Shown here: one piece after another, positions 14,594 to 46,526 of the stretch
Layout of the letters: each line of letters opens with the position of its first letter
Position numbering within the stretch: the stretch's first letter is position 1
Virus record (IMG/VR): IMGVR_UViG_3300025921_000002
Coordinates: 1-64,000 of that record
Direction: 5' to 3' (one strand)
Source of the DNA: a virus
Length of the DNA: 64,000 nt
Notes under the pieces: generated by a model
What the model saw: only the letters and a program-made list of their open reading frames with translations
What the model was told of the DNA's origin: nothing
Databases searched by the model: none
Translations under genes and position numbers: made by a program

Positions 14594-14614
14594 CTGACAG
14601 CAGAGTAATTTAGA

Positions 14615-14710
14615 ATGAAACAAGAAATCAAAAACTTCCCGGCAGACCGTCATTCGTTAGTAGATTACTCTGCGGTAAACTCGTCGTTTGTGTCTGACCG
14701 GGTTTTTTAA
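14615..14710 (+). CDS. Small peptide, 31 residues
   Basis: ATG 14615, about 20 bases after the promoter, reading MKQEIKNFPADRHSLVDY and on to a TAA. It could be a true peptide or an upstream leader reading frame for the gene at 14721. Low support. Confidence 0.35.
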   Translation: MKQEIKNFPADRHSLVDYSAVNSSFVSDRVF

Positions 14711-14720
14711 TTTAAACGCT

Positions 14721-26980: not shown

Positions 26981-27060
26981 AAACCTATTAAGGGTTCAAC
27001 CGATTGCGCCAGTCTCCCCCAAATAGGGTTTTAATGTTTTTGATGCGGAGCGCAATTCCG
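26981..27060 (-). ncRNA. HNH leader RNA, copy A
   Basis: On the minus strand: hairpin P1, CGGA-ATTGCGC-TCCG (27060-27046), then hairpin P2 closed by CCTATT/AATAGG (27027-27022 with 26989-26984), containing TGGGGGAGA, GCGCAAT and TTGAACCC. The P1 loop ATTGCGC is complementary to GCGCAAT in P2 (27009-27003), so a 7-bp loop-loop contact can form. A U-run follows P2, then the HNH ATG. Copies B and C share the plan. Confidence 0.7.
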
Positions 27061-27070
27061 AATTACAATT

Positions 27071-27101
27071 CAAATATAAGTAATATCCTACTAATTTGCA
27101 A
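27071..27101 (-). promoter_or_regulatory. Promoter of HNH cassette A
   Basis: Minus strand TTG (27101-27099), 20 bases, TATATTTG (27078-27071), a perfect consensus. The transcript would start just before the P1 hairpin. Confidence 0.85.
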
Positions 27102-27104
27102 TAG

Positions 27105-27287
27105 TTAACGTAAAGCCAAACTATGTCCATTAACAAACCAAAGTATAGCACCCAATATCACCAATAGGATAATAATGCCTTTAACAATGGTAGGAATAGG
27201 CCAAATATACCGCTCGAATACCCAAAGTATGAGTGCGACAACCCCTAAGAATATCAGTAAGTAAAGAAGTTGTACGAGGATTTGCAT
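27105..27287 (-). CDS. Small two-helix membrane protein
   Basis: 60 residues with two transmembrane helices (LLYLLIFLGVVALILWVF and IVKGIIILLVILGAILWFV) joined by ERYIWPIP. I recall similar proteins in Bacteroidota phages; a holin-like or membrane-modifying role is possible. It lies just upstream of HNH cassette A on the same strand. Confidence 0.65.
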   Translation of the reverse strand: MQILVQLLYLLIFLGVVALILWVFERYIWPIPTIVKGIIILLVILGAILWFVNGHSLALR

Positions 27288-27302
27288 GGTGTGATAACAA
27301 AA

Positions 27303-27329
27303 AATAATGTCAAAAGTTTGGACATTATT
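27303..27329. promoter_or_regulatory. 9-bp inverted repeat over the scaffold promoter
   Basis: AATAATGTC (27303-27311) and GACATTATT (27321-27329) form a perfect inverted repeat with a 9-base spacer covering the -33 element of the promoter at 27317-27348. A regulator bound here would control late head genes. Confidence 0.55.
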
Positions 27330-27348
27330 ACTTTAAGTTATAGATTTA
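27317..27348 (+). promoter_or_regulatory. Promoter of scaffold and capsid genes
   Basis: TTTG (27317-27320), 20 bases, TAGATTTA (27341-27348). The scaffold ATG is at 27367. Confidence 0.75.
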
Positions 27349-27366
27349 TACAAAAATTGTCAAAAT

Positions 27367-28419
27367 ATGGCTTTGTCGCAACTTGAACAAGAATACTACA
27401 ACGACCTTTTAGCACCACCAATTGATGAAACAATACCACCCGCAGACGACACTCCGCCTGCCGATGATACCCCACCAGTTGACCCGCCAATAGATACTCC
27501 ACTTGCTGACGAAATACCGCCAGTCGATGAAGTTCCGCCCGTAGTAGTGACTCCACCAGTTGTTACACCGCCCGTAGATACGCCTTCGGTTTCAACCAAA
27601 AAATACATCCCTCTCGAAGATGAGAAAACCATCTACGACACTTTAGCTAAAAAGTACGGGCATGAAAGAATGAAACCCGAAGAAAAGGCTTTAGCTTTTA
27701 TAGCACAGCAAAATCCGGGTTTAGACGAAAACGAAATACTATTTATTGCGGCAAATGACTACGGTATAGGCGTTGACAAGATTAGCGACGAAGATTTAAC
27801 CGACGAACAGATATTAAACCTTAAAAAACAGGAAATATCCCGTAAAAAGCTAATGTACCAAGCCGACCAATTCTTTAAAGAAGAAGCCGGAAAGGTAGAA
27901 TTGCAGGGATATGACCCGCTTGACCTTGACCCTGACTATAAATCTTATCAGGAAAGGCAAATTCAGGCTCAAAAAGACGAAGAAGAACGCAGTAAGAAAT
28001 TTAACGAAATATTAAACGATATCCAAACTACCGCCTCATCATTAGCGGAACATACAGAAAAGGTTGAAGTTGACATCGACGAAAGCAAGTTGCCTTTTGA
28101 TTTAAACTTTAAACTGGACAAAACAAAACAAGATAAGCTGTCTGACTATGCACAACGGTATTCGCCGTCTGATGCAGAAGTTAGTCAATTCACAGACCCG
28201 AAAACAGGCAAGTTCGACTATAAGGGTTACCTGACTTATCTTATTCCATCTGTATTTGCCCGTGAATTACTAAAAGCAGGCGTCAAGCAAGGCATCACCA
28301 CAGACCGCGAAAAATTCATCGAAAAGGAACTCAAAAATTCCACGTTAAGGAATAATGAGGCTTCCAAAGTAGTGGATAAGGAGTTTGATTTGGTTGATGC
28401 GTGGACGTTTGGTAAATAA
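27367..28419 (+). CDS. Scaffold-like head assembly protein
   Basis: 350 residues just before the capsid gene. The N-terminal 75 residues are an acidic, proline-rich low-complexity arm with repeated DTPP, IPP and VTPP units. The rest is highly charged and helical, with many Lys, Glu and Asp. Size, charge and position are those of a capsid scaffold. No protease motif was seen, so removal may depend on a host or distant protease. Confidence 0.65.
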   Translation: MALSQLEQEYYNDLLAPPIDETIPPADDTPPADDTPPVDPPIDTPLADEIPPVDEVPPVVVTPPVVTPPVDTPSVSTKKYIPLEDEKTIYDTLAKKYGHERMKPEEKALAFIAQQNPGLDENEILFIAANDYGIGVDKISDEDLTDEQILNLKKQEISRKKLMYQADQFFKEEAGKVELQGYDPLDLDPDYKSYQERQIQAQKDEEERSKKFNEILNDIQTTASSLAEHTEKVEVDIDESKLPFDLNFKLDKTKQDKLSDYAQRYSPSDAEVSQFTDPKTGKFDYKGYLTYLIPSVFARELLKAGVKQGITTDREKFIEKELKNSTLRNNEASKVVDKEFDLVDAWTFGK

Positions 28420-28454
28420 TTAACAAAAAACGTCGAACTTAACAACTTAAAAAA

Positions 28455-29813
28455 ATGGCATACAACAACACAGGCCAGAACCCATCACAGGTTTCTTTAG
28501 CCAATATTAATTATCAGTACGAATCTGATTTATCTATGCTCGTACCGCGCGCATACCCAAAATTCATTAACCAATTCCCGTCTTTAGCATCTAAAAACTA
28601 CATCGTGATGCGTGAAGGACAGGGCGATATGGTTTACACAGACAACAAGACCTTTTACTTCTGGACTAAAAAAGGAAAGAACGTTCCGTCATTCAAGGTA
28701 TCAACTTTGGTAGCTCCCGGCACACCGTCAGGAACCATCACTTGCTCTACCGCTTATCAGTATGACAGCAACACTCTTTCCCCTTTTGGTAACGGTTGGT
28801 ATTTCTATAACGATAGCACAGGTCAAACTATTCAGTTGACCAACGTGGTAAATTCAGGCGGTGTTACTACTGCTACCGCCACCACAACTGACGGGAGCAA
28901 CCTTTCTATCGCTACTACTGACCTGATGATATTTGACGCTACGGTAGTAGGTGAGGCTTCCGGTTCACAGACCACAATGGCAACCATTGACGTAAAGAAC
29001 ACCAACTATTGCGATACCATCAAAAGTACGCAGACCTTTACCGACTGGTCGTTATTCGAGCGTTTGGACATCCCTAACAATCCCGCAGGTTTCGATAAAA
29101 TCCGCTACCGCCAACAGGCAGATGAGCGTGATCGGTTCCTTTATCAGCAGGAACGTTTGCTGATGTTCAACAAGCCTATCACCAACATCACCGGGGTAAC
29201 CGCACAGCACACAGGCTTATTGCCACAAGTGCAGTTAGGCGGTCAGACTGACACGACCTCAACCATCGTTAATCAGGCTTACTTCGACAACTGGCGCAGG
29301 CTTATCGACGCACAGGGTTATTCAATGGAGTACGATGCTTTGCTAAACGTAGAGCTTCGTATGAAGTGGGAAAACTTTATACAGTCAACCTATAACAATG
29401 GTTCGATTGTGTATTTGGATTCACCTGCTTTCACCCACGGCCCTGCCGATTTGAACAGGAACTTCCAAGCCTACAACTTCCACGGGATTAAATTGAACTT
29501 TATGACCTACGATTACTTCTCAAGCGCCAACATTGCCGGACAAGTTCCGAACTCTGGCTTGTGGAACAACGCCGTATTGTTCATTCCAAGAGGTGAGGGT
29601 ATTGACCCTGCTACCAACGTAAACGTACCACGTTTCAGCGTAAGGTGGCAAGGTGTTGACGAAGGTTCAAGTGCTATCAAACTTCGTTTGACTGGCGGTC
29701 TTGCACCTATCGCAACAGACGACATCGAACACTTAGTTGTATCAACTGTAACCACAAAAGGTTTGCAGGCATTTGGTATCAACGGCTACATGTTCGGTCA
29801 GTTAGCTGCATAA
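28455..29813 (+). CDS. Major capsid protein
   Basis: 452 residues. It shows N-terminal YQYESDLSMLVPRAYPKFINQF, an acidic helix near the middle (RYRQQADERDRFLYQQERLLMF) and a C-terminal domain with long strands, consistent with the HK97 fold. It follows the scaffold and is followed by a strong terminator, as expected for the most abundant virion protein. An inserted Thr/Ser/Gly-rich domain around residues 85-170 may be surface-exposed. Confidence 0.85.
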   Translation: MAYNNTGQNPSQVSLANINYQYESDLSMLVPRAYPKFINQFPSLASKNYIVMREGQGDMVYTDNKTFYFWTKKGKNVPSFKVSTLVAPGTPSGTITCSTAYQYDSNTLSPFGNGWYFYNDSTGQTIQLTNVVNSGGVTTATATTTDGSNLSIATTDLMIFDATVVGEASGSQTTMATIDVKNTNYCDTIKSTQTFTDWSLFERLDIPNNPAGFDKIRYRQQADERDRFLYQQERLLMFNKPITNITGVTAQHTGLLPQVQLGGQTDTTSTIVNQAYFDNWRRLIDAQGYSMEYDALLNVELRMKWENFIQSTYNNGSIVYLDSPAFTHGPADLNRNFQAYNFHGIKLNFMTYDYFSSANIAGQVPNSGLWNNAVLFIPRGEGIDPATNVNVPRFSVRWQGVDEGSSAIKLRLTGGLAPIATDDIEHLVVSTVTTKGLQAFGINGYMFGQLAA

Positions 29814-29819
29814 TATTAA

Positions 29820-29851
29820 GGGGGCGGGAATTAACTTGCCCCCTAATTTTT
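29820..29851 (+). terminator. Terminator after the capsid gene
   Basis: GGGGGC (29820-29825) and GCCCCC (29838-29843) form a 6-bp GC stem, followed by TAATTTTTAT. It is probably leaky, since the next gene has no promoter of its own. Confidence 0.75.
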
Positions 29852-29856
29852 ATAAC

Positions 29857-30726
29857 ATGAATGATTTAGCACTCAAGCCCGTAATGGGCAGACCAAAAAA
29901 AGAAAACGTTCCGGTAGAAAAAAAGGAAGAAAGGCTTGTTGACGTAGGTTTTGAGATAGACCCTGAAAAGGACTATATCTTTGAAACCATTAAAAAGTCG
30001 CCAAACCCACGCCACGAAGTATTAGCTTCTACCTGCCGGATATTTGACACCGAAGAAAAGAGGTACAGGGATATTATCTACATTCCTACCGCCCCATCCA
30101 TCTTTAAAGAGGATTTGGACGAAAGCTGGGATGCTATACCCTCACCGCCACTATTCTTTTACCGCGACCAACTGATTATACACGGTCAGGATAAAAGAGG
30201 CATGGAGTATGTGATGATGCACTCTGACTACGAGTTCAGCCCTTTTAAAGTGTCGGGCAGGCAACCTAAGTTTACTTTAGTAGACAAAGAAGTGCAGGAA
30301 AAGATAAAGGCCAAAATACACGAGGCGCAGTTTAAGGCGCAGGAAGCCATTAAAAAACTTCCTATTGAAGATTTACGCCCTATCGCAAGAGTGGTGTTTG
30401 GCGTAACTGAAATAGCCGATACAGCCATTGTGAATAAAATGAATGAAATCGCCAAATCAGACAAAAAAGGAACAGGGAAACTTCCGGCAGAACAAATACT
30501 GGAAAATATCGGAAACCCTGAACTGGTAAGGCGCTACAATATACAGTCAGGCATAGACAACGGTTTAGTATTTATTGACACGAATACAAGTCAGGCAAGG
30601 TTCAGAGAAAACAACGTGTTTATCCTGCAACTAAAAAGCCGCGACTACGTGAAGGAACTGGTGGACTTCTCCAACACAGGCGAGGGCATGGAGTTTTATA
30701 ACCAGTTGAAAAAGAAAATGAATTAA
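29857..30726 (+). CDS. Virion-associated hypothetical protein
   Basis: 289 residues from ATG 29857 (an in-frame TTG at 29836 is inside the terminator). It starts GRPKKENVPVEKKEER, then FEIDPEKDYIFETIKKSP, and ends in a charged helix region. It sits between capsid and neck genes, so a head or connector accessory protein is likely. No family recognised. Confidence 0.6.
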   Translation: MNDLALKPVMGRPKKENVPVEKKEERLVDVGFEIDPEKDYIFETIKKSPNPRHEVLASTCRIFDTEEKRYRDIIYIPTAPSIFKEDLDESWDAIPSPPLFFYRDQLIIHGQDKRGMEYVMMHSDYEFSPFKVSGRQPKFTLVDKEVQEKIKAKIHEAQFKAQEAIKKLPIEDLRPIARVVFGVTEIADTAIVNKMNEIAKSDKKGTGKLPAEQILENIGNPELVRRYNIQSGIDNGLVFIDTNTSQARFRENNVFILQLKSRDYVKELVDFSNTGEGMEFYNQLKKKMN

Positions 30727-30777
30727 AATCTCCCTCCTCAAAGGGACTAATTTCATAGGTTTATAGGTTTAGGTTAG

Positions 30778-30818
30778 AGTGATAAGCTGCGAGAGTTTGT
30801 CACTTTATTTTTTTATAT
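30778..30818 (+). terminator. Terminator 1 between head and neck genes
   Basis: AGTGA-T-AAGCT, loop GCGAG, AGTTT-G-TCACT forms an 11-bp stem (one G-U, one mismatch) followed by TTTATTTTTTT. Confidence 0.75.
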
Positions 30819-30853
30819 TTACAATGAGAATTTGGTTTTAGAGTGGTTAATGG

Positions 30854-30882
30854 AAAGCAGGTTTGAATGGCCTGCTTTTTTT
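30854..30882 (+). terminator. Terminator 2 between head and neck genes
   Basis: AAAGCAGG (30854-30861) pairs with CCTGCTTT (30871-30878), followed by T residues. Two terminators 75 bases apart enclose a -7-like TATATTTA (30814-30821), so a short RNA could be made between them. Confidence 0.75.
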
Positions 30883-30906
30883 GTTTTTAATATCTGAAAT
30901 ATTCTT

Positions 30907-30914
30907 TACATTTA
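30907..30914 (+). promoter_or_regulatory. -7 element of the neck and tail operon
   Basis: TACATTTA, with TTTG at 30880-30883, a spacer of 23 bases (longer than the usual 19-21). It follows the two terminators and precedes the gene at 30938 by 23 bases. Confidence 0.5.
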
Positions 30915-30937
30915 CTACGGTATAACAAAAAAGAATA

Positions 30938-31594
30938 ATGGCGGTTTCGATTGATTACGTTCACCAACTTGTTTACGATCTTGCGGCTAAACAGCTCGCC
31001 TCGTTCCCAAGTCCGAACGATTTTAATAATTACGCTGAACTTGCATCCATAGACCTTTTTAACTACTATAACGACGAAAGAAACAAAGAGTTGATAGATG
31101 TTAAAATGGGGCAGACTATAAATATCCCTAACACACTTTCAGACTTTGTTGTTTATCAGGCCGTAATGGAGCAAAGCGGGAATGAGTTTTTATACCCCGA
31201 TGATTTCATGTATGACTTGGCTTTAACAAACAGCGTATCGAAAGCAGATTTCAAAAAAGTTGACCCTGATAAGATATTCAACTATATCAACAGCACGATT
31301 GATGCGCCAAGTTTGGACTTTCCGATTTATATGCCCCTTGATCAAAGCAGGGTAGTGGTTTATCCTACGGTAATTCCATCGTTAACGTATCTTAGAAAAC
31401 CAATAACACCCGTTTGGGCTTATACAGTAATAAATAATAGACCTGTTTATGACCCGCTAACAAGCGTAGACTTTGACTGGAGTCCGACAGAGGTTTACAG
31501 GCTTACAATGAGAATATTAAACTACTTTGGAATTTCTATTAGGGATACCGAGCTTATGCAAGAGGCACAACAATTAACCATAGGAGCAAGCTAA
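30938..31594 (+). CDS. Probable head-tail adaptor protein
   Basis: 218 residues. Helical N-terminus (VHQLVYDLAAKQLASFPSP) followed by strands and MPLDQSRVVVYP. In size and order it corresponds to the first ring or adaptor protein after the capsid in short-tailed Bacteroidota phages. Assigned by position. Confidence 0.5.
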   Translation: MAVSIDYVHQLVYDLAAKQLASFPSPNDFNNYAELASIDLFNYYNDERNKELIDVKMGQTINIPNTLSDFVVYQAVMEQSGNEFLYPDDFMYDLALTNSVSKADFKKVDPDKIFNYINSTIDAPSLDFPIYMPLDQSRVVVYPTVIPSLTYLRKPITPVWAYTVINNRPVYDPLTSVDFDWSPTEVYRLTMRILNYFGISIRDTELMQEAQQLTIGAS

Positions 31595-31595
31595 G

Positions 31596-32246
31596 ATGGC
31601 ATTAACTACGAAATTAGAGGTTGTTCAGGAAATACTATACGAGGTATTCGGGGGAATGCAATCCAACCAATCCGCTATTTCCGAAAATTTCATTTTGCGT
31701 AAGTTAAATGACCGGATAGCAGAAGCGGCGGTTAAGTCTGCTTTTGGCTCTTATAATCTCGATGGATGCGTTTGTGTTGATGATATATTCAATCTTACCT
31801 ATTCAGCGTTAACATTGCTTACAGATAGCAATAACGGGCTTAAATATGTGGTACTACCAACGCAGCCAATAGGCTTACCGTCCGGAAGGGCTTTTAATGT
31901 TTATCCACCTAATAATTTGGGCGGTATTCAGCAAAGCACATTCAAACCAATTTCGAGAGGTGAAGTGACCTATATAAGAAGTTTACCGGTAATAAAAAAG
32001 ATATTCCACTTTGTTGAAAACGGAAGGTTATACATCATTGATAATTACAATTTGAGCCAATATTTCCCTACGCTGAATATGACTGTCACTTCTTCGGGGG
32101 CAAATAACCTGACAGATATACTTAACTTGCCCGATGATATGATAGCCGGAGTCAAAATGTTAGTAATACAGGATTGCAAACAAATGATGATGTTAGCAGA
32201 TACAACGCCACTCCCACAAAGCGATGCACCAGAACCAAGAAACTAA
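31596..32246 (+). CDS. Probable neck or tail tube protein
   Basis: 216 residues, beginning one base after the previous stop. Mixed alpha/beta with a Cys pair in GCVCVDD. By position one of the connector ring proteins. No family recognised. Confidence 0.5.
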   Translation: MALTTKLEVVQEILYEVFGGMQSNQSAISENFILRKLNDRIAEAAVKSAFGSYNLDGCVCVDDIFNLTYSALTLLTDSNNGLKYVVLPTQPIGLPSGRAFNVYPPNNLGGIQQSTFKPISRGEVTYIRSLPVIKKIFHFVENGRLYIIDNYNLSQYFPTLNMTVTSSGANNLTDILNLPDDMIAGVKMLVIQDCKQMMMLADTTPLPQSDAPEPRN

Positions 32247-33011
32247 ATGGAAAATACACTATCACCACTTATAAGCCTCGATGAGATAGTTAACGGTTAT
32301 CTCGATCAACATCAAAGGCCACAAGGCCAATACAGGCGCATATACAGCATTGCTATTCGTGGTTATAGGTTATTCTACCGTGATAGTTTAGGCTTGCCTA
32401 AAAGCGTTACATTGCCCATACAGGCAAATGGTGTAGCTACCCTACCAACTGATTTTATGAGTAAGATACAGATAGGCGTTTTAAATGAAAGGGGTGAATT
32501 TGCTTCGCTTGTAGAAGATAATAACCTATCGCTTACAGATGCGGTTTCTTCGGACAGGCTTAGTCAAAAACAATACCATACCCAATACGATAACACCGAT
32601 TATATTTTAGGTTTCGAGGACTTTAATAACGGAGTTTATCCCGGTTGGGGTTACGGTCAATTAGGTGTTGGTGGGAATAACCTTATTGGAAGCTACCGTA
32701 TAGACTACACCGACAGGGTAATTGTACTTAACTTTCATTACAGGCCGACAAACCTAATATTAGAGTATTTGGCTATGCCGACCAATAACGGGGAATATGC
32801 AGTACATCCTTTCTTTCAAGAGGCGCTAATAGCTTATATCAGGTGGCAGGACAGCGTAGGTAACAAGACTATTGGGATAAGCCAACAAAGGGATAATAAG
32901 GCTATTTATGATATGGAGTATAAGAATGCAAGGAGAGCCATGCAGCCATTCGATCCGTCCGATGCTTCAAATCAATATCGTAAAAGCCAACGTATGGCCG
33001 TAAAATCATAA
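32247..33011 (+). CDS. Probable head-tail connector protein
   Basis: 254 residues. The N-terminal SLDEIVNGYLDQHQ, the strand LPKSVTLPIQANGVATLPTD and the C-terminal helix with HPFFQEALIAYIRWQDS recall the tubular connector proteins of podovirus-like phages (T7 gp11/P22 gp4 role). Assigned by layout and by the following large tail protein. Confidence 0.55.
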   Translation: MENTLSPLISLDEIVNGYLDQHQRPQGQYRRIYSIAIRGYRLFYRDSLGLPKSVTLPIQANGVATLPTDFMSKIQIGVLNERGEFASLVEDNNLSLTDAVSSDRLSQKQYHTQYDNTDYILGFEDFNNGVYPGWGYGQLGVGGNNLIGSYRIDYTDRVIVLNFHYRPTNLILEYLAMPTNNGEYAVHPFFQEALIAYIRWQDSVGNKTIGISQQRDNKAIYDMEYKNARRAMQPFDPSDASNQYRKSQRMAVKS

Positions 33012-33015
33012 TACG

Positions 33016-36000
33016 ATGTGCGCGGTAATGAAGGATTTCAAGATGTTCCAAGCCGGGGGTTTGGATTATGATAGCGCAGTTGAAGTCCGTGCTAAAAATG
33101 ATTATTTTCCAGCGTTTAACATTCGCCCTCAAGGGGTAGCAGGCTTAGACGAGGGGTATATAGCTAACATTGAGTCTAATCAGCTTCTTTCAGCCTCGGT
33201 AGCCCCCGGAATATCCCGTTGCATAGGTTCAGCGGGTTTTGAGTCAGCAAGGTTTGGCGTGGGTATTTATTTTAATTCAGCAGGCTATAATCAAATAAGG
33301 AAAGTTGACTACGATACCGACACGGTTACTACGATTGATATTTCAGCGTGGCCTTTAAGCCCTCAAAACTACGTCAACGACATTAAGTTAGTCAATAACG
33401 AATTTTTGTTGATGAATGACGGACATAACCCACCATTCTACGTTAACCTACCTGCACTGGAAGCAGGCGACTATGGGGAAACAACGGCAACAGACTTTAT
33501 GTTAGCCAAGCCGCAGCCGTGGTATCCTGCCTCGGCTTCTTATAGCGATGACGCAAGCAGGGCTGTAAATCTTCTCAATACCAAGTTATTCAGGTTCAGA
33601 ACACAGTTTATAGGACTTTATAACGAACCAAGTATAGATGGGGTTATTTCACCGCTATTCATCCCCGAAGAACAGTCTACACCGAGGGTCGGAACAGACG
33701 TAACCAAAAATAATAATCTAATTATAAAGGTTGACGCGGGAACAGACAGGGTAAAGACTTTGGTACTTGACGGGCAATACGGTGTAACGGATTGGTTTAC
33801 GGTCAGGACAATAGACCGGGCAGATATACTTGCACTTCCTTTAAATATCGACATACCTACGCAAGTTTACGAGGCATACGACCCTGCTACAAACCTCTAT
33901 ACGTTCGTCTTTTATAACGATGGGTTATACGTAAACAAACCTGTACTTGAAACCGACCAACAGTATTCTAACGTTCCTATTACCGCAGGGGCATTAGAGA
34001 TACTCAACGGCAACCAAGTAGTGTTTGGTGATATAACCACAGGTTATTACAAACCCGTAATAGACGTTTCGCTAAGCGCCACAAACTATAATCCCAATTT
34101 AAGCCTGCCATTTACCGATTCAAGCCCGTTAAGGCAACTAATTGTTAACCCCGGTCAGTCAGGTTCGGGATTAGGCAACCACAAGAGGTTAGTACAAATA
34201 GAGTTTACAGGAGTCGTTCAGCAGGGAGATATATTAACCATCGTCATGGTTGACATACGAAACGCAGGGAATACACTGACTTATGTTTTCCCTTGTGACT
34301 TCGCAGAAAGCGGGGACACGGCACTATTTATTACCAATTTAGCCCCTGAAATAGCAAGCACAAGTGTTTACACCCCTACCGACGGTTTTACCATAGGTTT
34401 GAATATTGTAACGCAGCCTTTCTTTACGCTGCAATCTTCGACCATAACATTATTTAACCCCGGCTCAACTGTATTTAAATCCATACATGCTTTAAAACTT
34501 AACTCATCCTATCAATTAGCTTTTGCGGGTTATGATTATTTCGGCAGACCTTTCCCTATAGTGACGGATGCCAGTTGGATATTAAAAACTAACTCTTACG
34601 GGCAGTCACACGGGGCAACGCCACAATTCAACTGGAAAATAAACACGCCAACCGCGCCGGAGGGGATGTATACTTACCAGTGGCTTATATCGCAAAATAA
34701 CACCCACCTGCAAGACCTGTATATGCTTGCTTCCATAATAGCCTATGAGGGGACATGGGATGCCACAGCAAACACCCCGACGCTTGCAGCAAACACAGGA
34801 ACTACGGGTTTCGTGTATAAGATTACTGGCCCCGGCTCACAGAATTTAGGTATGGGGGAAACGGCCTATATGACTAACGACTACGTGCTTTATAATGGGT
34901 CGGCATGGACAGTTATCCCGGGAAGCTATGGTGACCTTTCAGATACCACAGCCTACTACTTTTACCTGAACTCACTTCAAGCGTTTAACGCAAGGAACAA
35001 TACCTCTATTTTAAACTACGACTACACGGTTAACGACAGGTGTACTTTAGCCTATTATGATGATGCCGGAAATATAAACTACTTCGACGGTGTAGTAAAC
35101 CCGATTGTCGATGTGGCTGTTTTGGGTTATGATGCCTCGGTATTCTTTCTAAAGGTCAATAAGGCAAGTGGCTTTGACTCATCTACCATTGTAGGTAAAA
35201 ATGTGATGCTTGAACTTTATACGCCAAAATCGGTTCAGTCAAGCCCCGAAGCACAGGTATTCTACGAAACAGGTGTGGTTTATAAAGTAATAGATGGCCA
35301 GTACGAAACCCTGCAAGGTGTAATAACAGACGGTGACGCCTACTTTAAAACAAGGCAAATCCCCGGCTCAATAGACCCAAATACCACTTATTCAACGGTT
35401 GTTGAAGATTTTAACTTCTCTGATTTTTACCCGTCAAGGTATACTTCCTACGGCAGACCGAGAATAATTGATGATGTTTTAGGCAGGATTAGAAAAATAG
35501 CCAATATCATTTACTCACAACAGTATATTGTAGGCTCAAAGAATAACGGGCTTCCTGTTTTCTACGTAGCAGACGTTTATGGCGAAGCAGGGGGACAAAC
35601 CTCATCTTCTTACGGGGCTATTGTTAAACTTATTCAGATAAACAACGAATTAATTGACCTGCAAGAGTTGAATCACGGCTCTATTCCGGTTTTTATTAAT
35701 ATTATCGAAGATCAAATCGAACAGCAGAATGTAGCCATTTCTGAAAAGATACTCGGTAACATAAGATATACCTATTCAATTCACATTGGGGTAGGCGTAG
35801 CCAAAGAATCCATTGCCGTTTACAACAACATCATCTACTGGATAGACAGCAACAGAAGCGAGCCGATAAGGTGGAATAGCGCAAACGGGGCTATTCCTAT
35901 CAACGAGAAGATGTCAAAATACTTTAGGCAAGTACTGGCAGCGGCTTACGCAGCCGGGCTTAAAGTTATTGGCTATTACGATATTTTCAACGACGAGTAT

Positions 36001-36903: not shown

Positions 36904-36916
36904 GAAAATAAATAAA

Positions 36917-37000
36917 ATGAGTATATTTACAATACCGACCGCAAGCGGATTTAAGAAACTTAAAGAGCCATTAAACGGGGGAGATGTCTTGCGGCGTTGA
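36917..37000 (+). pseudogene. Possible 5' fragment of a gene split by HNH cassette C
   Basis: ATG 36917 reads MSIFTIPTASGFKKLKEPLN then GGDVLRR and stops at 36998. The reading looks like a true virion protein start, and the downstream gene at 37440 lacks a proper ATG, so the two could be parts of one gene interrupted by the HNH cassette. The same bases also form the cassette promoter and leader RNA, so this may instead be chance. Confidence 0.35.
36922..36929 (+). promoter_or_regulatory. -7 element of HNH cassette C
   Basis: TATATTTA, 5 bases before the P1 hairpin, with a T-run 20 bases upstream in place of TTTG. Matches the arrangement of cassette A. Confidence 0.5.
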
Positions 37001-37014
37001 ACCCGGTTAATGGT
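36935..37014 (+). ncRNA. HNH leader RNA, copy C
   Basis: P1: CCG-A-CCGCAAG-CGG (36935-36948). P2: GCCATTAA (36967-36974) pairing with TTAATGGT (37007-37014), containing CGGGGGAGA, CTTGCGG (36988-36994) and TTGAACCCGG. The P1 loop CCGCAAG is the exact complement of CTTGCGG. The contact sequence differs from copies A and B but stays complementary, which is the key covariation. A U-run and the HNH ATG follow. Confidence 0.65.
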
Positions 37015-37027
37015 ATTCTTTTTTAAA

Positions 37028-37468
37028 ATGAAACCGACTATATTTTCAGATGGTAGATTGTATGGGTTTACAAACGAACAAAGATTTAAAACTAAATTTG
37101 AAGTAAATGAAGAAACAGGATGTTGGGAGTGGAATGGTAGAATTAATAAAGGTGGCTACGGAAAGTTCACTTTTAATAACAAAGAATTAACGGCTCACAG
37201 AGTTTCATACATGCTACACAAAGGGGAAATACCTGATGGACTGCATGTATGCCATACCTGTGACGTAAGGCATTGCGTCAACCCAGATCATTTATGGTTG
37301 GGGACGAATGCTGATAATATGGCTGATAAAGTTAAAAAAGGGAGATTTGCAACAACCCATGGGACATACCAAATGTATTTTAGAAGAGGGTGTCGCTGTG
37401 AAATATGTGTAGATTGGTCAAGAAAAAGATATAGAAAAGGTGACCGGATTGACTCAAATAGAGAATAA
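37028..37468 (+). CDS. HNH homing endonuclease (cassette C)
   Basis: 146 residues from ATG 37028; an in-frame ATG at 37010 lies inside the P2 hairpin. [55 protein letters not shown] is the HNH_3 type His-Me finger with its Cys ligands and catalytic His; [14 protein letters not shown] is a second Cys cluster. Closely similar in layout to the gene at 45899. The 3' end overlaps the next gene by 29 bases. Confidence 0.92.
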
Positions 37469-38333: not shown

Positions 38334-38350
38334 TTACATATATTTATACC

Positions 38351-39417: not shown

Positions 39418-40775
39418 TGGCAGAGATACAACCAAACTGGAACTCTTATTACAGCCCACAGGCTTACGATACCTTTAAAGGCAATCCCGGCCTCGACGAC
39501 CTTAATAAACGCTATGCCCAAATAGAAAAGGATAGGGAACTTGACAGACAGTTATTAGGTCAGCAAATCTCTAAAATGAACTTTGGTGGCGTTAAGCCTG
39601 CCGACGTGGGTGACCTGCAAAACCAGTACAACGATATTCTAAACGCCTATCAAAAGGCAAGGTCAATCACCGACCCTATGAAACGGGCGCAACTGACTAT
39701 GGAGTTGAGGCAGAAGATGAACGGTCTGCAATATAACGTGGAGAATAAAAAAGAGAACCACAGTCAGGAATTAAAGATGTTCGAGCAAATGAACCATCCT
39801 AATGCTTTCCCGGCTGACAACGCACAACAATTAGTAGGTGATGTGATAGGTACACCAACCGGAAGCCCCGAATATCAAACAAAATTAGAGGCTTTCAGAA
39901 ACGGTTGGCAGGATAAACCTGTTGACTTGGGAAAACTAACAACAACAGCCTTTACTAAAAACCTGACCAAAAGCACCAATTCAGGGCAAGAAATAAAAGA
40001 CCCCGCGACAGGACTTTTCAGGAATCAGATTATCAAAACCTCTGATGTTCCAAAAGCCGCTTACACCAACGAGATTGTAAACAGCGCATTAGGCGACAAA
40101 AGAACACTACATACCATAAGTAAGCTATACCCTGATTTGCCACCTGCACAAGCAGTTACACAATTTGCAAATGATAGTTATGAAGACCAAAAGCGTAAGT
40201 TGATAAGTGACACAACTTATAGCGCACCGCATATGAGTTATGACCAACATTTAGGCTTACAGGAAAATGCTGCAAGGCTTAAATCTAAATACCCATCGTT
40301 CGGTCAACAGCAAAACCTTACACCAATTTATAGGCAAAAATTAGTTGGTGATATGTTGAATGGTGTGCCGGGAAGTGGCGAAACTTTAGTCAATAAACTA
40401 AAAGCAGACCCATCCTATCAAAGACCTTTGGGTATTAAGGTAAATGGAGATAATATTCAATTTACAATACCCGATAAATTAAAAAATAAAATAGATAGTG
40501 ATGGAAAACCGTCGTGGCAGGTAGAAGTTCCTACACGGGTTGTTACAATTAATAAAAAAGACCCAAATGCAGATGTTCAGCTTAACGAATTAGTTAACCA
40601 ACTTACAGGCGAAAAAGTTGACATTTCCTCTTTAAGGACACAAGGCGGTAAAAAGCATGTTGCAGTTTCGGTTAGCAGTCAACCTGCAAAAGTAACCAGT
40701 CAAGACGAATACAATAAAGTACCTAAGGGCACTCAATACATAGCACCTGATGGTAAAATTTATATCAAAAAATAA
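39417..40775 (+). CDS. Internal virion (ejection) protein
   Basis: 452 residues, helical, rich in Gln, Asn, Lys and Asp, without membrane segments. Its ATG overlaps the previous stop and its last base is the first base of the next gene. It resembles the middle of three stacked ejection proteins in podovirus-like particles. No catalytic motif seen. Confidence 0.6.
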   Translation: MAEIQPNWNSYYSPQAYDTFKGNPGLDDLNKRYAQIEKDRELDRQLLGQQISKMNFGGVKPADVGDLQNQYNDILNAYQKARSITDPMKRAQLTMELRQKMNGLQYNVENKKENHSQELKMFEQMNHPNAFPADNAQQLVGDVIGTPTGSPEYQTKLEAFRNGWQDKPVDLGKLTTTAFTKNLTKSTNSGQEIKDPATGLFRNQIIKTSDVPKAAYTNEIVNSALGDKRTLHTISKLYPDLPPAQAVTQFANDSYEDQKRKLISDTTYSAPHMSYDQHLGLQENAARLKSKYPSFGQQQNLTPIYRQKLVGDMLNGVPGSGETLVNKLKADPSYQRPLGIKVNGDNIQFTIPDKLKNKIDSDGKPSWQVEVPTRVVTINKKDPNADVQLNELVNQLTGEKVDISSLRTQGGKKHVAVSVSSQPAKVTSQDEYNKVPKGTQYIAPDGKIYIKK

Positions 40776-43700
40776 TGGGACAATTTAGCTGGACTCCACC
40801 ATCAACTGATGAACCTGTAAAGAAAACAGGATGGACTCCACCTGCTTCTGATATTCCTGTCGTTGAAAAAAAAAGTCCAGTTGGCAACGCTTCTGTGGCT
40901 ACCTCAACGCAGTCTGGCGATGGCTCAAGTCCTTCCCCTCTCCAACAAAGTCTTACTAATGCTATGAAAGCGTATAGCATTACGCATACGCCAAAAGAAG
41001 TTAGTGATGTTCAAAACACAGTAAGCCAACAAAAACAAGAGGATAAAATAGCAAGAACCCCCGATGCTGTAGTTGCCCATGAGAAATACATGGAAACACC
41101 CTTAGGTAAAACACAGGGCGCTTTTCAATATGTTGGCTCTAAAGCCTCTAAAGGTGCTTTACAGATAGCTAAAGGCGCTACGTGGCTATATAATCATACT
41201 TCGGCCAATCCAATTCAGGGAATGATTGATGAAGTAAGTAATCAGCATAAAGGACAGGAAGATTTTTTCAACAAAGCAGATAAGGCAACTAACTTAGGTT
41301 TGACAGCTACCGACCTGCAAAACATTGAAAGCAATAAAGGTATAGGTGCTTCTGCCTTACGCACCGCAGGAACGTTCGCCGAGATAGCGCCAACAATATT
41401 AGGCGGCGAAGCATCTGGCGCACCAAAACTTGCCTTTGCATTACAGGGATTAGGACAGGGAAAAGAAACAATGGATGCAGTTGACCCCGACCATAAAGTT
41501 AACCCTGCAATAAGGGACGGCTTTATAGCCCTGAATGGCGCTTTTAATGCCGCTTTAATGGGTGACGCAGCAGAAACTAACTTTGCTAAAATGCCTGCCG
41601 CATTACGCGGTAAAATAAGTTCAGCTTTAGCTATGGACGCTATTAAGCAAAATGGCGAAAAAGAAATAACTGGTGAACTTGTTGACCATACCGTAAAAGA
41701 CTTTGCCCATAACTTTTATAAATTAGGCACAGACTATGTACAAAAGGTAGCCCGTACAGGCGTTGACCTTTCAGCATTGCAAGCAGCAACTGGCTTAGCT
41801 AAATATGGTGTAAATAAAGCAAGTGGGCAGGAGGTTTTTAAAAATCCCGCAGGAGAAACCGCAGAAGGGGTAAGCAACGCTGTTTTACAGCAAGCACCTG
41901 TTTTTGGTGCAGCAGGTACAGTAGGTGACCTTTCAAAGTTAACTCCTTATTCATCTTTTAAAAACGAGGTTTTTGAGAATATTGTTAAAGACCCAAGCCA
42001 AACAGATGCTATTAAACAGGAAATAGCACAACATGGTCAGGAAAGAGGATGGACACCGGAAGAAATTCAGGCCACTAACGACCATATTGACCAAATAAAA
42101 ACAGTAGCGCAAAGACTCCCTGAAACTATTAAACCTGAAAAAAAATCAGATGCAGTTCAATTAGTACTTGATCGGGATGCCCTAAAGAAACAACTGGCTA
42201 ATGAAGTTGGTAAAAGAGGCGCGATGGATGAGTCTGTTAAGGATTTGCCTAATGCTCACGAAGAATGGCTTACTGACAAGATTGAGCAAGCGAACGATAA
42301 GTTAAGGGCTATGGCTACGGGCAAGCGTACAACTTATTCTAAAGGCGTTGGCGACGAGGAAGGAAAGTTCTTCAAAACTACCAACGGCGAAAAGGAAGAA
42401 ATAACTGAAAATAGGTATAACTTAGAGAAGTTAGAACGCACAGCAAATGAAAATACTAATGAACAAGAAAAAATAAACAACAATGAAAAAATCAGCAACC
42501 AAAGCGAACAAGAAAGCGGTGTTCAGCAAACCGCCAGCGGGGAAAAAGTGGCAGAACAGCCCGGCAACCCCACCGAAAGCGTCCAAGCCATCGGCAACGG
42601 TAGTAGCGAAAATGAAGAAAGGCTGTTAACAACAGGGGGTGAACAGCCCCCTTTAAAAGCCATTAAAAACAAGGTTGATGAAAAAAATGCTCAAGACCCG
42701 GATTTTTCAGAAAAGAATTATGACGCATGGGAAGAGCACCGAATGGGTTTGGAAAAACAAATATTCCATGAGCCAATAGATGAAAATTTACCCATTAGTG
42801 AAAATATTAAACTTTTAAATAAATCATTAGAACCTGAATTTGAAAAAATAAAACAAGTTATAGGCGATGATGAAGTTGCTGATAAGTATATTTCAGCTAT
42901 CCAACGTAACCCAAAACGTGCTGAAAAAATAAGGAATGAATTACCAAAAGATGTTCAGGGTAAACTATTCAACCGAATAAATGAGGATGATTTTGAAGAT
43001 AATAAACAGCAAACTGACGAATTTGAACATCTTAATTCAGAAAGCGATAGGGATATAACAGACGAAATGAAATTTTCATGGATAGGGAAAAAAATAACCT
43101 CTCCATCCGACATGCAAAAGCCATTTAATCGAGTTATTGTGAAGGATTTAATTTCCCAATTGGCTGACAAGGGTTATTCGCAGGAAGAAATAGTCCGAAG
43201 GGCTATGCAAGACCGTGTTAGTCGGGGCGATAATGCCGAGCATGTAACTGAATTGGTTAAGGCTGTTTTGGAAGAACACGGTAAAAAATCTGAACCACAA
43301 CAAAAACAAATAGAAGGAGGTAAAAATGCCACTAAAACCGGGAACATCGAAGAAAACAATCAGCAGCAACATCAAGGAACTGTTGGACAGCAACAGGGGG
43401 TCGAAGAAAATCGGCAACACCAAGAAGAACCTGTCGCTAAAAGCCAAACAGAAACAGGCGGTAGCAATAGCATTGAGCAAGGCGGCCAAGTCAAAAAAAC
43501 AATCCTAACTAAACGAGCCTACGAAGGAGAGATACAGCTCGAAGTAAAAAAGCATCTTGAAGAAAAGGGGCTGACACGTAAGTCATTCTCACAAGAGGAA
43601 CGCTCTAAACAAGCTACCGACTTTATTAATAAGTTTGGTGAAGAAGCGGCACAAAAAGCAGTTGAAGCAGGAGATATAGACGGTGGTATGGCCGCATCTG

Positions 43701-45898
43701 TATTAGCACAACTAAAAATAAAAACCGATAAGGCAATGTCCGATTTCCCCGAAGGAAGTGAGGAACGCGATGCTTTGGCTAAAAAGCAAGCCGACATAAT
43801 AAACCTCATGGAAAAAAAGGGTTATTTAGGCGGTGAATTTAACGGGCAGTTAGCGCATGAATACCAAAACGCTGAATTAGACTTTGCCAATGTTAAAAGA
43901 CAAGTTGAGGACTTAACTAAAAAGCCACTTACCGCAGGTCAGGAAAAGAAGATCAAAGAAATTACTTCTGAAAACGAAAAGCTAAAAGCACAATTACAGG
44001 AAGCCGAAGCTAAGCTAATTGAAGAAACTGACAAGGCTTTTGAATCTGGCAAAGAAGCCGCTAAAACAGAAACCAACGCTGAAAAAGCAAAAAGAATAGC
44101 TCAAAAACTAAGAGATAATGCCAAGCTAAATAAACCGGGCATTTTTTCTGCGGCAACACCTGCATCTTTAATTTGGGACGGTGCTATTGAAGTAACAGCC
44201 AAAAGCATTGAAGCAGGCGGTAAACTGGCTGACGCTATTGAAGCAGGTATCAAACATATCAAAGCAAGCGATTGGTATAAAAACCTGCCTGCAAACAAGA
44301 AAGAACTTGCTGAAAAAGAGTTTAAACGTGTTAATTACGAACATTCAGGCAGTACCGATGTAGAGGACTTGCAGGAAAGGTTTGTTGACAAAACCGACAA
44401 TAAGTTCACCCCCAACGAGGCTAAAGACATTTGGGGCTACATGAAGAAAACCTATATTGAAAATGGCACTTCATATCGGGATGCCCTTTCAAAAACAGCC
44501 GAAGATTTAGGGCTTTCTTGGAGGCAAGTTAGCGAAGCCGTAACCACGCCAAAGGTCAAAAGAATGTCGGATGAAATGTGGAAACGTCAATCCGAATACA
44601 CCCGAAACAGAACCGCTATTAAGAATTGGATAGATACTCAAACAGCTAATCCTTTTATGAAAGCCCTTAGAAAGGTTTCAGGTGCTTTTAGGGGGTTGGC
44701 TGTATTTGGTCACGGTGGCATATTTGTTGGCACACACGCGGGTACGACAGTATTTAATCCGTCTATGTGGAATAAAACAATACCTGCTTTTTTTAGAGGT
44801 TGGAAGTTTGCCTACGGAAACGAGGGTAATTATCAGCGTTCAATGGAAGAATTAAAAAATTCTCCAAATTATCTTATTGCTCAAAGAGCGGGTTTGAAAA
44901 ATAATCCTGAAAGAATAAATACAGAGGAATATCAAAAATCTCAACAATATTTAGGCAGAGCAGGATTAGCCGGAGAAAGAGGATTTAATGCCATAAAAGT
45001 GCTTCGGCAGGACTTATTTGACTATCATTTCAATAAACTGTCACCTGCGGAAAGAGATGACCCGGAAGTAGCTAAGAGCATAGCTAAATTAGTTAATTTG
45101 GCTACAGGAGCGACTAACTTAAAAATACCATCATGGGTACAAGAAGTTTCATTTGCCGGGGGTATGGAGGGTTCAAGATGGGAAAAGTGGCTAAGAAGCC
45201 CCGCAGAGGCCGCAGATATTGCCATGAAAGCCATATTCACGCCTGACAAAGCAACTACCGAGGAGCGTATTTTTGCAAAAGTATGGGCAAGACGGGTTGG
45301 TGAGCAATTGGCCACATTCAGTGCGCTACTTTTAGCTAATTCTGCTATTCAAAATACTTTAAATCCTAAAAATCCTGTAAATTATACAAACCCCGATAAG
45401 CCGGACTTTATGAAATTTAAGTTTGGAGATAGGACTATTGACCCAACATCGGGCATGTTAGGTGTAGGAAAGTTTATATATAAAGTAGGTAAATTACCAT
45501 TCCAAAGCGAAAAAGAATTACATGGTGATAAAAAGATTGCCGCTTTAGGTAAGGATTTGCTTCAATACGGTAGAGGAAAACTTGCTCCATTTTATGGCAC
45601 GGTAGCCGATGTATTTACAGGAAGGGATTTTAACGGAAACCCGCTACCATATAGTAAGGAAAAACCGGGTAAAGGGCATCATAAATTAGGTTATGGAGAG
45701 TACGCTTTAAGTAAAGCCCCGTTGCCGGGAGCGGAAGCTGCAAATGTTACTTATAAATCAGCCGAAGAACATGGAGCGCATGTCCCTACATTGGATGATG
45801 TGATAAAAGGATTCTGGTCAGGGGCTATTTCAGGGGCAACAGGATTTAGGGTTGGCGAATACGATGCCAACTCCCCTGAAAATAAAAAGAAAAAATAA
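40775..45898 (+). CDS. Giant internal virion protein, 1707 residues
   Basis: The largest gene of the window. Residues 1-500 hold Ala/Gly-rich amphipathic helices and an N-terminal Pro/Ser linker. Two low-complexity Glu/Asn/Gln linkers lie at about residues 550-640 and 840-910; each covers a small nested gene in the +1 frame (42483 and 43326). Residues 950-1150 are coiled coil, and about 1300-1700 (for example FRGLAVFGHGGIFVGTHAGT) resemble large polyvalent-type or membrane-active ejection domains. Probably injected with the DNA. Confidence 0.75.
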   Translation: MGQFSWTPPSTDEPVKKTGWTPPASDIPVVEKKSPVGNASVATSTQSGDGSSPSPLQQSLTNAMKAYSITHTPKEVSDVQNTVSQQKQEDKIARTPDAVVAHEKYMETPLGKTQGAFQYVGSKASKGALQIAKGATWLYNHTSANPIQGMIDEVSNQHKGQEDFFNKADKATNLGLTATDLQNIESNKGIGASALRTAGTFAEIAPTILGGEASGAPKLAFALQGLGQGKETMDAVDPDHKVNPAIRDGFIALNGAFNAALMGDAAETNFAKMPAALRGKISSALAMDAIKQNGEKEITGELVDHTVKDFAHNFYKLGTDYVQKVARTGVDLSALQAATGLAKYGVNKASGQEVFKNPAGETAEGVSNAVLQQAPVFGAAGTVGDLSKLTPYSSFKNEVFENIVKDPSQTDAIKQEIAQHGQERGWTPEEIQATNDHIDQIKTVAQRLPETIKPEKKSDAVQLVLDRDALKKQLANEVGKRGAMDESVKDLPNAHEEWLTDKIEQANDKLRAMATGKRTTYSKGVGDEEGKFFKTTNGEKEEITENRYNLEKLERTANENTNEQEKINNNEKISNQSEQESGVQQTASGEKVAEQPGNPTESVQAIGNGSSENEERLLTTGGEQPPLKAIKNKVDEKNAQDPDFSEKNYDAWEEHRMGLEKQIFHEPIDENLPISENIKLLNKSLEPEFEKIKQVIGDDEVADKYISAIQRNPKRAEKIRNELPKDVQGKLFNRINEDDFEDNKQQTDEFEHLNSESDRDITDEMKFSWIGKKITSPSDMQKPFNRVIVKDLISQLADKGYSQEEIVRRAMQDRVSRGDNAEHVTELVKAVLEEHGKKSEPQQKQIEGGKNATKTGNIEENNQQQHQGTVGQQQGVEENRQHQEEPVAKSQTETGGSNSIEQGGQVKKTILTKRAYEGEIQLEVKKHLEEKGLTRKSFSQEERSKQATDFINKFGEEAAQKAVEAGDIDGGMAASVLAQLKIKTDKAMSDFPEGSEERDALAKKQADIINLMEKKGYLGGEFNGQLAHEYQNAELDFANVKRQVEDLTKKPLTAGQEKKIKEITSENEKLKAQLQEAEAKLIEETDKAFESGKEAAKTETNAEKAKRIAQKLRDNAKLNKPGIFSAATPASLIWDGAIEVTAKSIEAGGKLADAIEAGIKHIKASDWYKNLPANKKELAEKEFKRVNYEHSGSTDVEDLQERFVDKTDNKFTPNEAKDIWGYMKKTYIENGTSYRDALSKTAEDLGLSWRQVSEAVTTPKVKRMSDEMWKRQSEYTRNRTAIKNWIDTQTANPFMKALRKVSGAFRGLAVFGHGGIFVGTHAGTTVFNPSMWNKTIPAFFRGWKFAYGNEGNYQRSMEELKNSPNYLIAQRAGLKNNPERINTEEYQKSQQYLGRAGLAGERGFNAIKVLRQDLFDYHFNKLSPAERDDPEVAKSIAKLVNLATGATNLKIPSWVQEVSFAGGMEGSRWEKWLRSPAEAADIAMKAIFTPDKATTEERIFAKVWARRVGEQLATFSALLLANSAIQNTLNPKNPVNYTNPDKPDFMKFKFGDRTIDPTSGMLGVGKFIYKVGKLPFQSEKELHGDKKIAALGKDLLQYGRGKLAPFYGTVADVFTGRDFNGNPLPYSKEKPGKGHHKLGYGEYALSKAPLPGAEAANVTYKSAEEHGAHVPTLDDVIKGFWSGAISGATGFRVGEYDANSPENKKKK
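42483..42629 (+). CDS. Nested small Lys-rich protein, +1 frame
   Basis: 48 residues, MKKSATKANKKAVFSKPPAG onward, ending VAKMKKGC, read in the +1 frame inside the giant ejection protein gene. The ATG follows an A-rich tract (AATAAACAACA), good for this genome. The host frame here is a low-complexity Glu/Asn/Gln linker, as expected if it is constrained by another coding frame. Lys-rich microproteins are common in Bacteroidota phage virions. Needs proteomic proof. Confidence 0.45.
   Translation: MKKSATKANKKAVFSKPPAGKKWQNSPATPPKASKPSATVVAKMKKGC
43326..43508 (+). CDS. Nested DUF6496-like basic protein, +1 frame
   Basis: 60 residues in the +1 frame of the giant ejection gene. It starts MPLKPGTSKKTISSNIKELL and ends KQKQAVAIALSKAAKSKKQS. 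The KQAVAIALSKA block is the hallmark I know from DUF6496-type small phage and plasmid proteins (STKQAIAIGLSKA), so this frame is likely real. GAAGGAGGT lies 5 bases before the ATG, a strong Shine-Dalgarno in a genome that rarely has one. The host frame is Gln/Glu/Asn-rich linker here. Confidence 0.65.
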   Translation: MPLKPGTSKKTISSNIKELLDSNRGSKKIGNTKKNLSLKAKQKQAVAIALSKAAKSKKQS

Positions 45899-46417
45899 TT
45901 AACACTTTCTATTTTTTCTATATTCAGCATTTCTCGCTAATACCATTTCTCTATTATTTTGGTAATATTCAGCTTGTTTTCGCTTATTACTTTCGGCATT
46001 ATTTAATCGCCACTGTTTTTGATATTCCCTTTCTAATTCTACGCAGCCGTCGCACCTGCATCCATTTCTAAACATGCTTCTTGATGGACATTGCGCCGTT
46101 GGCAATCTTCCTTTGTTCTGTGCATCATTTATATTTTCTTTATTTGTGCCTATCCACAAATGAAATGGGCTAACGCATTTTCTATTATCACATCTATGGC
46201 AAACAAACATTCCTTCTGGAATTTCTCCAATATAAAATTGATAAGAAAATCTATGTGCAAGTATTCTTTCTTGTTTTATCTTAAAATTACCATAGCCGCT
46301 TACATTTAATGGAGATTGCCATTCCCAGCATTGCGTTTCTGGATTTATAAGATATTTTTTTGTAAATCTTTCTATTGGGGATACCGCTAAATAATCCTTT
46401 CTCCCAAGTCCAGCCAT
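45899..46417 (-). CDS. HNH homing endonuclease (cassette B)
   Basis: 172 residues from ATG 46417; an in-frame GTG at 46459 is inside the leader RNA. QCWEWQSPLNVSGYGNFKI, LAHRFSYQFYIGEIPEG, VCHRCDNRKCVSPFHLWIGT are the HNH_3 motifs, then MFRNGCRCDGCVELEREYQK. The same family as cassette C but on the opposite strand. Its stop abuts the stop of the giant ejection gene. Leader and promoter as in the other copies. Confidence 0.92.
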   Translation of the reverse strand: MAGLGRKDYLAVSPIERFTKKYLINPETQCWEWQSPLNVSGYGNFKIKQERILAHRFSYQFYIGEIPEGMFVCHRCDNRKCVSPFHLWIGTNKENINDAQNKGRLPTAQCPSRSMFRNGCRCDGCVELEREYQKQWRLNNAESNKRKQAEYYQNNREMVLARNAEYRKNRKC

Positions 46418-46427
46418 AGTAATAAAA

Positions 46428-46508
46428 AGTCCTGTTCCGGGTTCAAGCGATTGCGCCACTCTCCCCCAAAACAGGACTCTAAATATCTTTATTCGGAGCG
46501 CAATTCCG
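46428..46508 (-). ncRNA. HNH leader RNA, copy B
   Basis: Minus strand: P1, CGGA-ATTGCGC-TCCG (46508-46494), then P2 closed by a perfect 9-bp stem AGTCCTGTT/AACAGGACT (46478-46470 with 46436-46428), with TGGGGGAGA, GCGCAAT (46456-46450) and TTGAACCCGG inside. Loop-loop complementarity is 7 bp. A short U-run and the HNH ATG follow. Confidence 0.7.
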
Positions 46509-46518
46509 ATTACTTATA

Positions 46519-46526
46519 CGAAGGTA
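46519..46526 (-). promoter_or_regulatory. -7 element of HNH cassette B
   Basis: Minus strand TACCTTCG, one base from consensus, 10 bases before P1, the same distance as in cassette A. No clear -33. Confidence 0.4.

Follow-up and report, generated by a model that had tools for sequence, protein, structure and literature searches.

Three leader RNAs and their HNH genes

The DNA analysed here, a 64,000-nucleotide stretch (the window) that is a portion of a 75-kb virus record, contains three matches to the core GGGGGAGA-N-TTGAACCC, at 26992-27020 (-), 36977-37004 (+) and 46439-46467 (-), against none in 100 shuffles of the window. An HNH_3 gene lies directly 3' of every core copy (3/3), with start codons at 26970 (-), 37028 (+) and 46417 (-). 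Because the portal protein of the virus has relatives in Flavobacterium, Cellulophaga, Tenacibaculum and Maribacter phages, a Bacteroidota host, and the promoter type that goes with it, are reasonable assumptions. The following elements make up the three copies:

27071-27078 (-): -7 promoter box TATATTTG of the 27 kb copy, exact TAnnTTTG, 10 nt 5' of P1; with it a TTG-like -33 element, at 20 nt
27046-27060 (-): P1 hairpin CGGA-ATTGCGC-TCCG (sequence, RNAfold, covariation)
26984-27027 (-): P2 hairpin with CCTATT/AATAGG stem and GGGGGAGA/TTGAACCC core (sequence, covariation)
27003-27009 (-): kissing strand GCGCAAT in P2
26971-26983 (-): U-rich tract TTTTTTTATTTTT 5' of the ATG (sequence, RNAfold)
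26425-26970 (-): HNH_3 gene, 181 aa, PHROG HNH endonuclease
36922-36929 (+): -7 promoter-like box TATATTTA of the 37 kb copy, 1 mismatch to TAnnTTTG, 5 nt 5' of P1
36935-36948 (+): P1 hairpin CCG-A-CCGCAAG-CGG (sequence, RNAfold, covariation)
36967-37014 (+): P2 hairpin with GCCATTAA/TTAATGGT stem and GGGGGAGA/TTGAACCC core (sequence, covariation)
36988-36994 (+): kissing strand CTTGCGG in P2
37015-37027 (+): U-rich tract ATTCTTTTTTAAA 5' of the ATG (sequence, RNAfold)
37028-37468 (+): HNH_3 gene, 146 aa
46519-46526 (-): -7 promoter box TACCTTCG of the 46 kb copy, 1 mismatch to TAnnTTTG, 9 nt 5' of P1; a -33 element was looked for here and none was found
46493-46509 (-): P1 hairpin TCGGA-ATTGCGC-TCCGA (sequence, RNAfold, covariation)
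46428-46478 (-): P2 hairpin with AGTCCTGTT/AACAGGACT stem and GGGGGAGA/TTGAACCC core (sequence, covariation)
46450-46456 (-): kissing strand GCGCAAT in P2
46418-46427 (-): U-rich tract TTTTATTACT 5' of the ATG (sequence, RNAfold)
45899-46417 (-): HNH_3 gene, 172 aa counted from the ATG

A sequence-only reading had described three leader copies 5' of the HNH genes at 26425, 37028 and 45899 (its letters follow type, 'B' being the 45899 copy and 'C' the 37028 copy), and all of its sequence claims are borne out in the window. The P1 loop has an exact 7-nt complement in P2, ATTGCGC/GCGCAAT at 27 and 46 kb and CCGCAAG/CTTGCGG at 37 kb, where both partners have changed and pairing is kept; the P2 closing stems were correctly quoted, and differ yet pair.

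The 27 kb and 46 kb leaders have a common P1 and core, and their HNH proteins have no blastp similarity to each other, so leaders and genes have recombined. The antisense HNH genes end, respectively, 41 nt inside a convergent structural gene (26425-26465) and exactly at the end of one (45898/45899), as if both had been inserted at the 3' ends of genes. At 37 kb the HNH gene runs into the beginning of its downstream neighbour (37440-37468); the neighbour's homologue in phage G001 starts there with ATG, and insertion seems to have replaced this start with GTG or TTG.

A family with a covarying loop-loop contact

Pattern scans of 2.9 million viral contigs extend the family to ten distinct members, namely the three window copies and L060, L028, L005, L156, L164, L168 and L390; L048, almost identical to the 27 kb leader, is additional to these. 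Each is a leader of about 85-115 nt lying 5' of a gene, between a TAnnTTTG box and the start codon. P1 has 3-9 bp and carries the kissing stretch of 6-8 nt in its loop, and the linker to P2 is A-rich, with AAACATT in 9/44 linkers of the wider set described below, some of them close relatives, against 0.84 expected. The outer stem of P2 (P2a, 5-9 bp) covaries freely in sequence and encloses the invariant core GGG-GGA-GA / UYGAACCC, made up of GGG/CCC, a 3x3 loop GGA/GAA and the G-Y and A-U pairs; beyond it come a short P3 and the kissing loop. In L168, UA is inserted after GGGGGA. RNAfold, which cannot model the kissing pairs, independently returned P1, P2 and the purine internal loop, and the P2 hairpins exceed shuffles in stability in 10/10 members (z -1.9 to -5.6).

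A U-run and then the ATG follow P2. The distance from stem to ATG is 8-20 nt in 10/10 members, and the U-run is present in 9/10, L390 having all features except this one. The -7 box lies directly upstream in 10/10, ending 3-13 nt 5' of P1, and is real, as had been proposed: the mismatches to TAnnTTTG sum to five over the ten members, against a shuffle mean of 19, with 0/2000 shuffles as good. Since the -7 box of Flavobacterium psychrophilum spans -12 to -5 (PMC9723704), transcription is expected to start at or near P1. The promoter box, fold, kissing contact, U-run and placement are all established at the level of sequence.

MAFFT misaligned the ten leaders, and a hand alignment on structure, N-padded and scored by a pair counter, was used instead. 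Within this alignment of ten sequences fitted to the structure, 261/261 base-pair cells are paired, and 33/33 helix pairs, including seven loop-loop pairs, form in every member; 25 of the 33 have changed on both sides, all seven kissing pairs among them. No shuffle of 500 reaches any of these covariation measures, and sliding the partners by one column reduces pairing to 43%. The sequence-only reading had staked its claim on covariation persisting in a larger alignment, and covariation is much stronger with ten members. Some members were recognised partly via the loop match, from which the three window copies are independent, and the P1 loop is complementary to the member's own P2 loop in 10/10 members, against 2/90 cross-member comparisons, both between copies with identical loops. 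A close-range example is given by the 46 kb copy and L060, which occupy an equivalent site in two related phages, flanked by homologous structural genes, and differ in P1, in P2a and at one kissing pair by changes that compensate each other.

A blind test on core, P2 stem and ATG only gave 17 candidates, 10 of them the family members with their kissing match; it was not clean, the remaining 7/17 being weak-stem chance matches, one with a 6-nt match. Relaxed core patterns gave mostly chance matches, and members could be identified only by structure, promoter box and ATG together; some of the false matches arise because TTGAACCC resembles the complement of the tRNA T-arm. Genome searches with model R1, which derives from only two sequences, overlook divergent members, and the model was therefore not used for the family count. 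Among about 85,000 prokaryote genomes scanned for the pattern there were 18 matches, none with the leader structure. No real match was found by blastn of a leader against named phages (a hit in Vibrio phage Kuja, inside coding sequence, was rejected as chance), and no convincing leader was found in lambda or the first 50 kb of Maribacter phage Panino.

At the gathering threshold, Rfam 15 gave no match over the window leaders, L060, L028, L005, L156, L164 and L168, nor over L390, L434, L493, L496, L505 and L506, and loose Rfam searches with the three window copies gave chance-level matches only. Elsewhere in the window, at 8208-8279 (+), lies a match to Rfam Flavo-1 RNA (RF01705), which at 52.7 bits exceeds the gathering threshold; this is an RNA already described from Flavobacteria, with no assigned function, here inside a phage record. 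No description of the leader was found in the open-access literature; subscription papers and supplementary tables (e.g. PMC8040213) were outside the scope of this search, and an unnamed earlier prediction is possible. No Rfam 15 family fits, and the proposal of a structured RNA family without a named relative, in which a loop-loop contact covaries, is supported. The fold with its kissing contact is well supported by sequence comparison, and the leader is a real, apparently undescribed RNA family in viruses infecting Bacteroidota.

What did not hold is the label 'HNH leader', because the genes downstream of most other members are of different kinds and HNH genes follow only 4/10 distinct members. 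Helicase-methyltransferase fusions lie downstream in L005 and L156, a DnaD-like helicase loader in L168, a 52-aa membrane protein in L028 and a 103-aa unknown protein in L164, while the gene downstream of L390 adjoins an exonuclease that reads as YqaJ-like. As regards a possible riboswitch, the leaders have a conserved core, but their downstream genes belong to no common pathway. That GGA/GAA is conserved in phages not otherwise related would be in keeping with a host factor or metabolite, or just with the geometry that the kissing contact requires.

A proposed wider class of pseudoknotted leaders

The upstream regions of helicase-methyltransferase homologues contain further leaders of identical plan. 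We applied a blind detector requiring a hairpin that ends <=24 nt from an ATG, a loop with >=7 nt complementary to upstream sequence, and a -7 box, with a cut-off matched by <=1% of shuffles. It gave 36 hits among 1288 starts of Bacteroidota phage contigs and a single hit in each of the shuffled and displaced controls, while the 8 hits in other viral contigs, against 6 and 5 in controls, are background. The P2 internal-loop modules vary across this wider class: L480:4761 has GGA/GAA with other flanking pairs, L493:1501 and L428:3595 have AGUA/GAA, resembling a sarcin-ricin motif, all three of these being relatives of the core, L493:3805 has GGC/AAA, and L434/L435 occupy the same position as other leaders with a different core. 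The leaders often lie 5' of replication and methylation genes; the genes include replication initiation proteins, DUF6291 and Lin1244-type proteins, a NUMOD4-HNH endonuclease and methyltransferases. Among named phages, such leaders are found in FCV-3, phi13:2, Gundel_1 (primosomal protein) and elemoF (the gene before the replication initiator).

UUUU stands at the foot of P2 in 29/31 kissing leaders (94%), compared with 10% of 405 other starts in the same contigs, and in only 69% of leaders with an H-type pseudoknot. A short ORF starting beside the pseudoknot strand is found in 6/14 H-type leaders versus 4/33 of the kissing types. Those H-type leaders in which it runs from the pseudoknot strand through the hairpin (L509:3076 (-), L499:2481, L475:1997, L467:2580 and the window leader at 14721) look like leader-peptide attenuators. 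The last of these, at about 14600-14720 (+), precedes a 126-aa ORF at 14721 and has a 10-nt GCAGAGTAAT/ATTACTCTGC pairing, a CCCGG/CCGGG hairpin and a T-run; a 31-aa ORF crosses the hairpin and stops 13 nt 5' of the ATG. Beyond the window, at about base 67404 of the same virus record (L420 7405, -), a pseudoknotted leader with GCACGGCA/TGCCGTGC pairing and an 11-bp hairpin lies 5' of a 254-aa HTH-like gene, with 0/300 shuffles as good.

These leaders appear to follow a common plan, although the grouping is by architecture and homology of all members is putative. We tentatively propose, at somewhat less than an even chance, that Bacteroidota phages carry a widespread, undescribed class of pseudoknotted-terminator leaders, kissing and H-type, with interchangeable internal-loop modules, which would control genes for replication, DNA methylation and homing. 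The GGG-GGA-GA/UYGAACCC subtype would be a sequence-conserved branch answering a metabolite or host factor found in many hosts.

Function of the leader and its relation to known systems

The best functional clue is the U-tract at the foot of P2. With a promoter upstream and a gene downstream of it, a conditional terminator is the simplest reading, and the hallmark of an intrinsic terminator or attenuator, a stable stem and then a U-tract, both lying between promoter and gene, is found in 9/10 members. The leader is probably a built-in on/off control of gene expression; that it is a cis-acting conditional attenuator, with P2 as an intrinsic terminator embedded in a kissing-loop fold, we consider about an even bet. 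Transcription would start at or beside P1, after which P1 and P2 would fold and be locked by a 6-8 bp kissing interaction of their loops, with P2 shaped by the purine-rich 3x3 internal loop (GGA/GAA) that separates GGG/CCC from the loop-closing pairs. The P2 foot and U-run would then act as an intrinsic terminator 8-20 nt 5' of the start codon, so that a share of transcripts would end before the gene, and under some condition polymerase would read through and the gene would be expressed. Because the P1 loop can pair with the ascending P2 strand before the 3' arm of P2 is made, a signal, be it a ligand, a protein or folding speed, would likely set terminator strength through the kissing contact. 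Termination, its conditionality and its signal are what we infer from the arrangement in sequence. Against an attenuator stand L390, without a U-run, and the lower frequency of UUUU among H-type leaders; no separate antiterminator was identified, and P2 stem and kissing contact are not in competition.

The sequence-only reading had offered 'a regulated terminator or translation switch', which is plausible, U-tract enrichment favouring the terminator although L390 lacks the U-run. Were the control translational, a P2 held by the kissing contact beside the start codon would limit ribosome access, a loosening signal would raise translation and the U-run would serve as an unstructured initiation region. 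P2 ends 8-20 nt from the ATG in every member, L390 included, structure close to the start codon modulates initiation in Flavobacterium (PMC6847099), and hairpins at homing endonuclease starts of T4-type phages in some cases hide the ribosome site (PMC2988022). P2 does not, however, cover the ATG, and U-tracts are strongly enriched at the stem foot, where adenine at -3 would be the favourable context; A at -3 occurs in 4/10 leaders versus 56% of other window ORFs. We regard this alternative as unlikely, though a real contender, and rank it next after the terminator because P2 adjoins the start codon even without a U-run and initiation in Bacteroidota is structure-sensitive (PMC6847099).

A structure this stable, beginning at or near the inferred transcription start, might also be a 5' cap that protects the mRNA from 5' decay, or a stand-alone small RNA, of which P1 and a terminator-like P2 would be plausible parts, with its terminator adjoining the next gene by chance; but protection alone would need no U-tract and the tight ATG spacing in every member speaks against a stand-alone RNA, which leaves this pair of explanations quite improbable. 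Less probable again, and a long shot, is an RNA that binds RNA polymerase and makes later terminators ineffective, as HK022 put RNA does: in its favour are a position where phage transcripts begin, the two hairpins and the unrelated downstream genes, but the leader has a terminator-like element of its own and several of its targets are single short genes. Least probable of all is a self-cleaving ribozyme or intron remnant travelling with the homing endonuclease. HNH genes are often found in introns, and the pistol ribozyme has a similar topology, in which the loop of a hairpin pairs with part of a later stem; however, Rfam gives no ribozyme or intron at gathering level and only chance-level matches below it, cores vary in the wider class as catalytic cores do not, and the surroundings of the 37 kb HNH gene, which at its end overlaps the following gene's start, accommodate no intron core. 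A search for a group I intron core around the endonuclease gene gave only an 8.6-bit end fragment on the opposite strand at 37 kb, and comparison with phage G001, a related phage, led to rejection of an intron at this copy. The pistol ribozyme has no match in the three window copies even at E up to 10. HEARO, or IscB omega RNA, was also rejected, there being no Rfam match and the proteins being of 146-181 aa with HNH_3 only, versus large RuvC-HNH proteins.

These leaders add a covariation-supported RNA family to phages in which gene control is poorly known although their hosts form a major bacterial phylum. They indicate a broader leader class at replication and methylase genes and also suggest that homing endonucleases borrow the expression control of phage replication genes. 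If P2 is a terminator, its hairpin loop would be engaged in a conserved tertiary contact, as is otherwise seen in very compact riboswitches. Since examples occur in the cultivated phages FCV-3, phi13:2, Gundel_1 and elemoF, immediate testing is possible.

Several known systems resemble parts of this plan. The P1 loop of the pistol ribozyme pairs with a strand inside a later helix, across an A-rich linker, as in the present leader, which has another P2 core, no evident cleavage site and no Rfam ribozyme match. ColE1-type kissing complexes and the IncI-alpha repZ leader pseudoknot likewise have loop contacts of about 7 fully paired nucleotides, and leader pseudoknots there control replication genes, but with antisense RNAs acting in trans. 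RNA hairpins also lie directly 5' of homing endonuclease genes in T4-type phages (I-TevI, segB, mobE and seg43(25); PMC2988022), that of seg43(25) ending just 5' of the start region as here. Those hairpins are simple and mostly hide the Shine-Dalgarno site, and as described (PMC2988022) are without a covarying loop-loop contact, U-run or shared core; the present leader, by contrast, is not limited to endonucleases. The HMP-PP (thiS) riboswitch, a terminator-embedded aptamer (PMC6478431), is similarly a compact leader in which the terminator hairpin itself lies within a structured, pseudoknotted element. Its aptamer fold disrupts the terminator stem, and it serves thiamin genes (PMC6478431), whereas the kissing loop described here is compatible with the full stem, the genes are those of phages, the signal is putative and no Rfam family matches. 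The HMP-PP riboswitch comes nearest in working plan, and the T4-type homing endonuclease hairpins come nearest in genomic setting.
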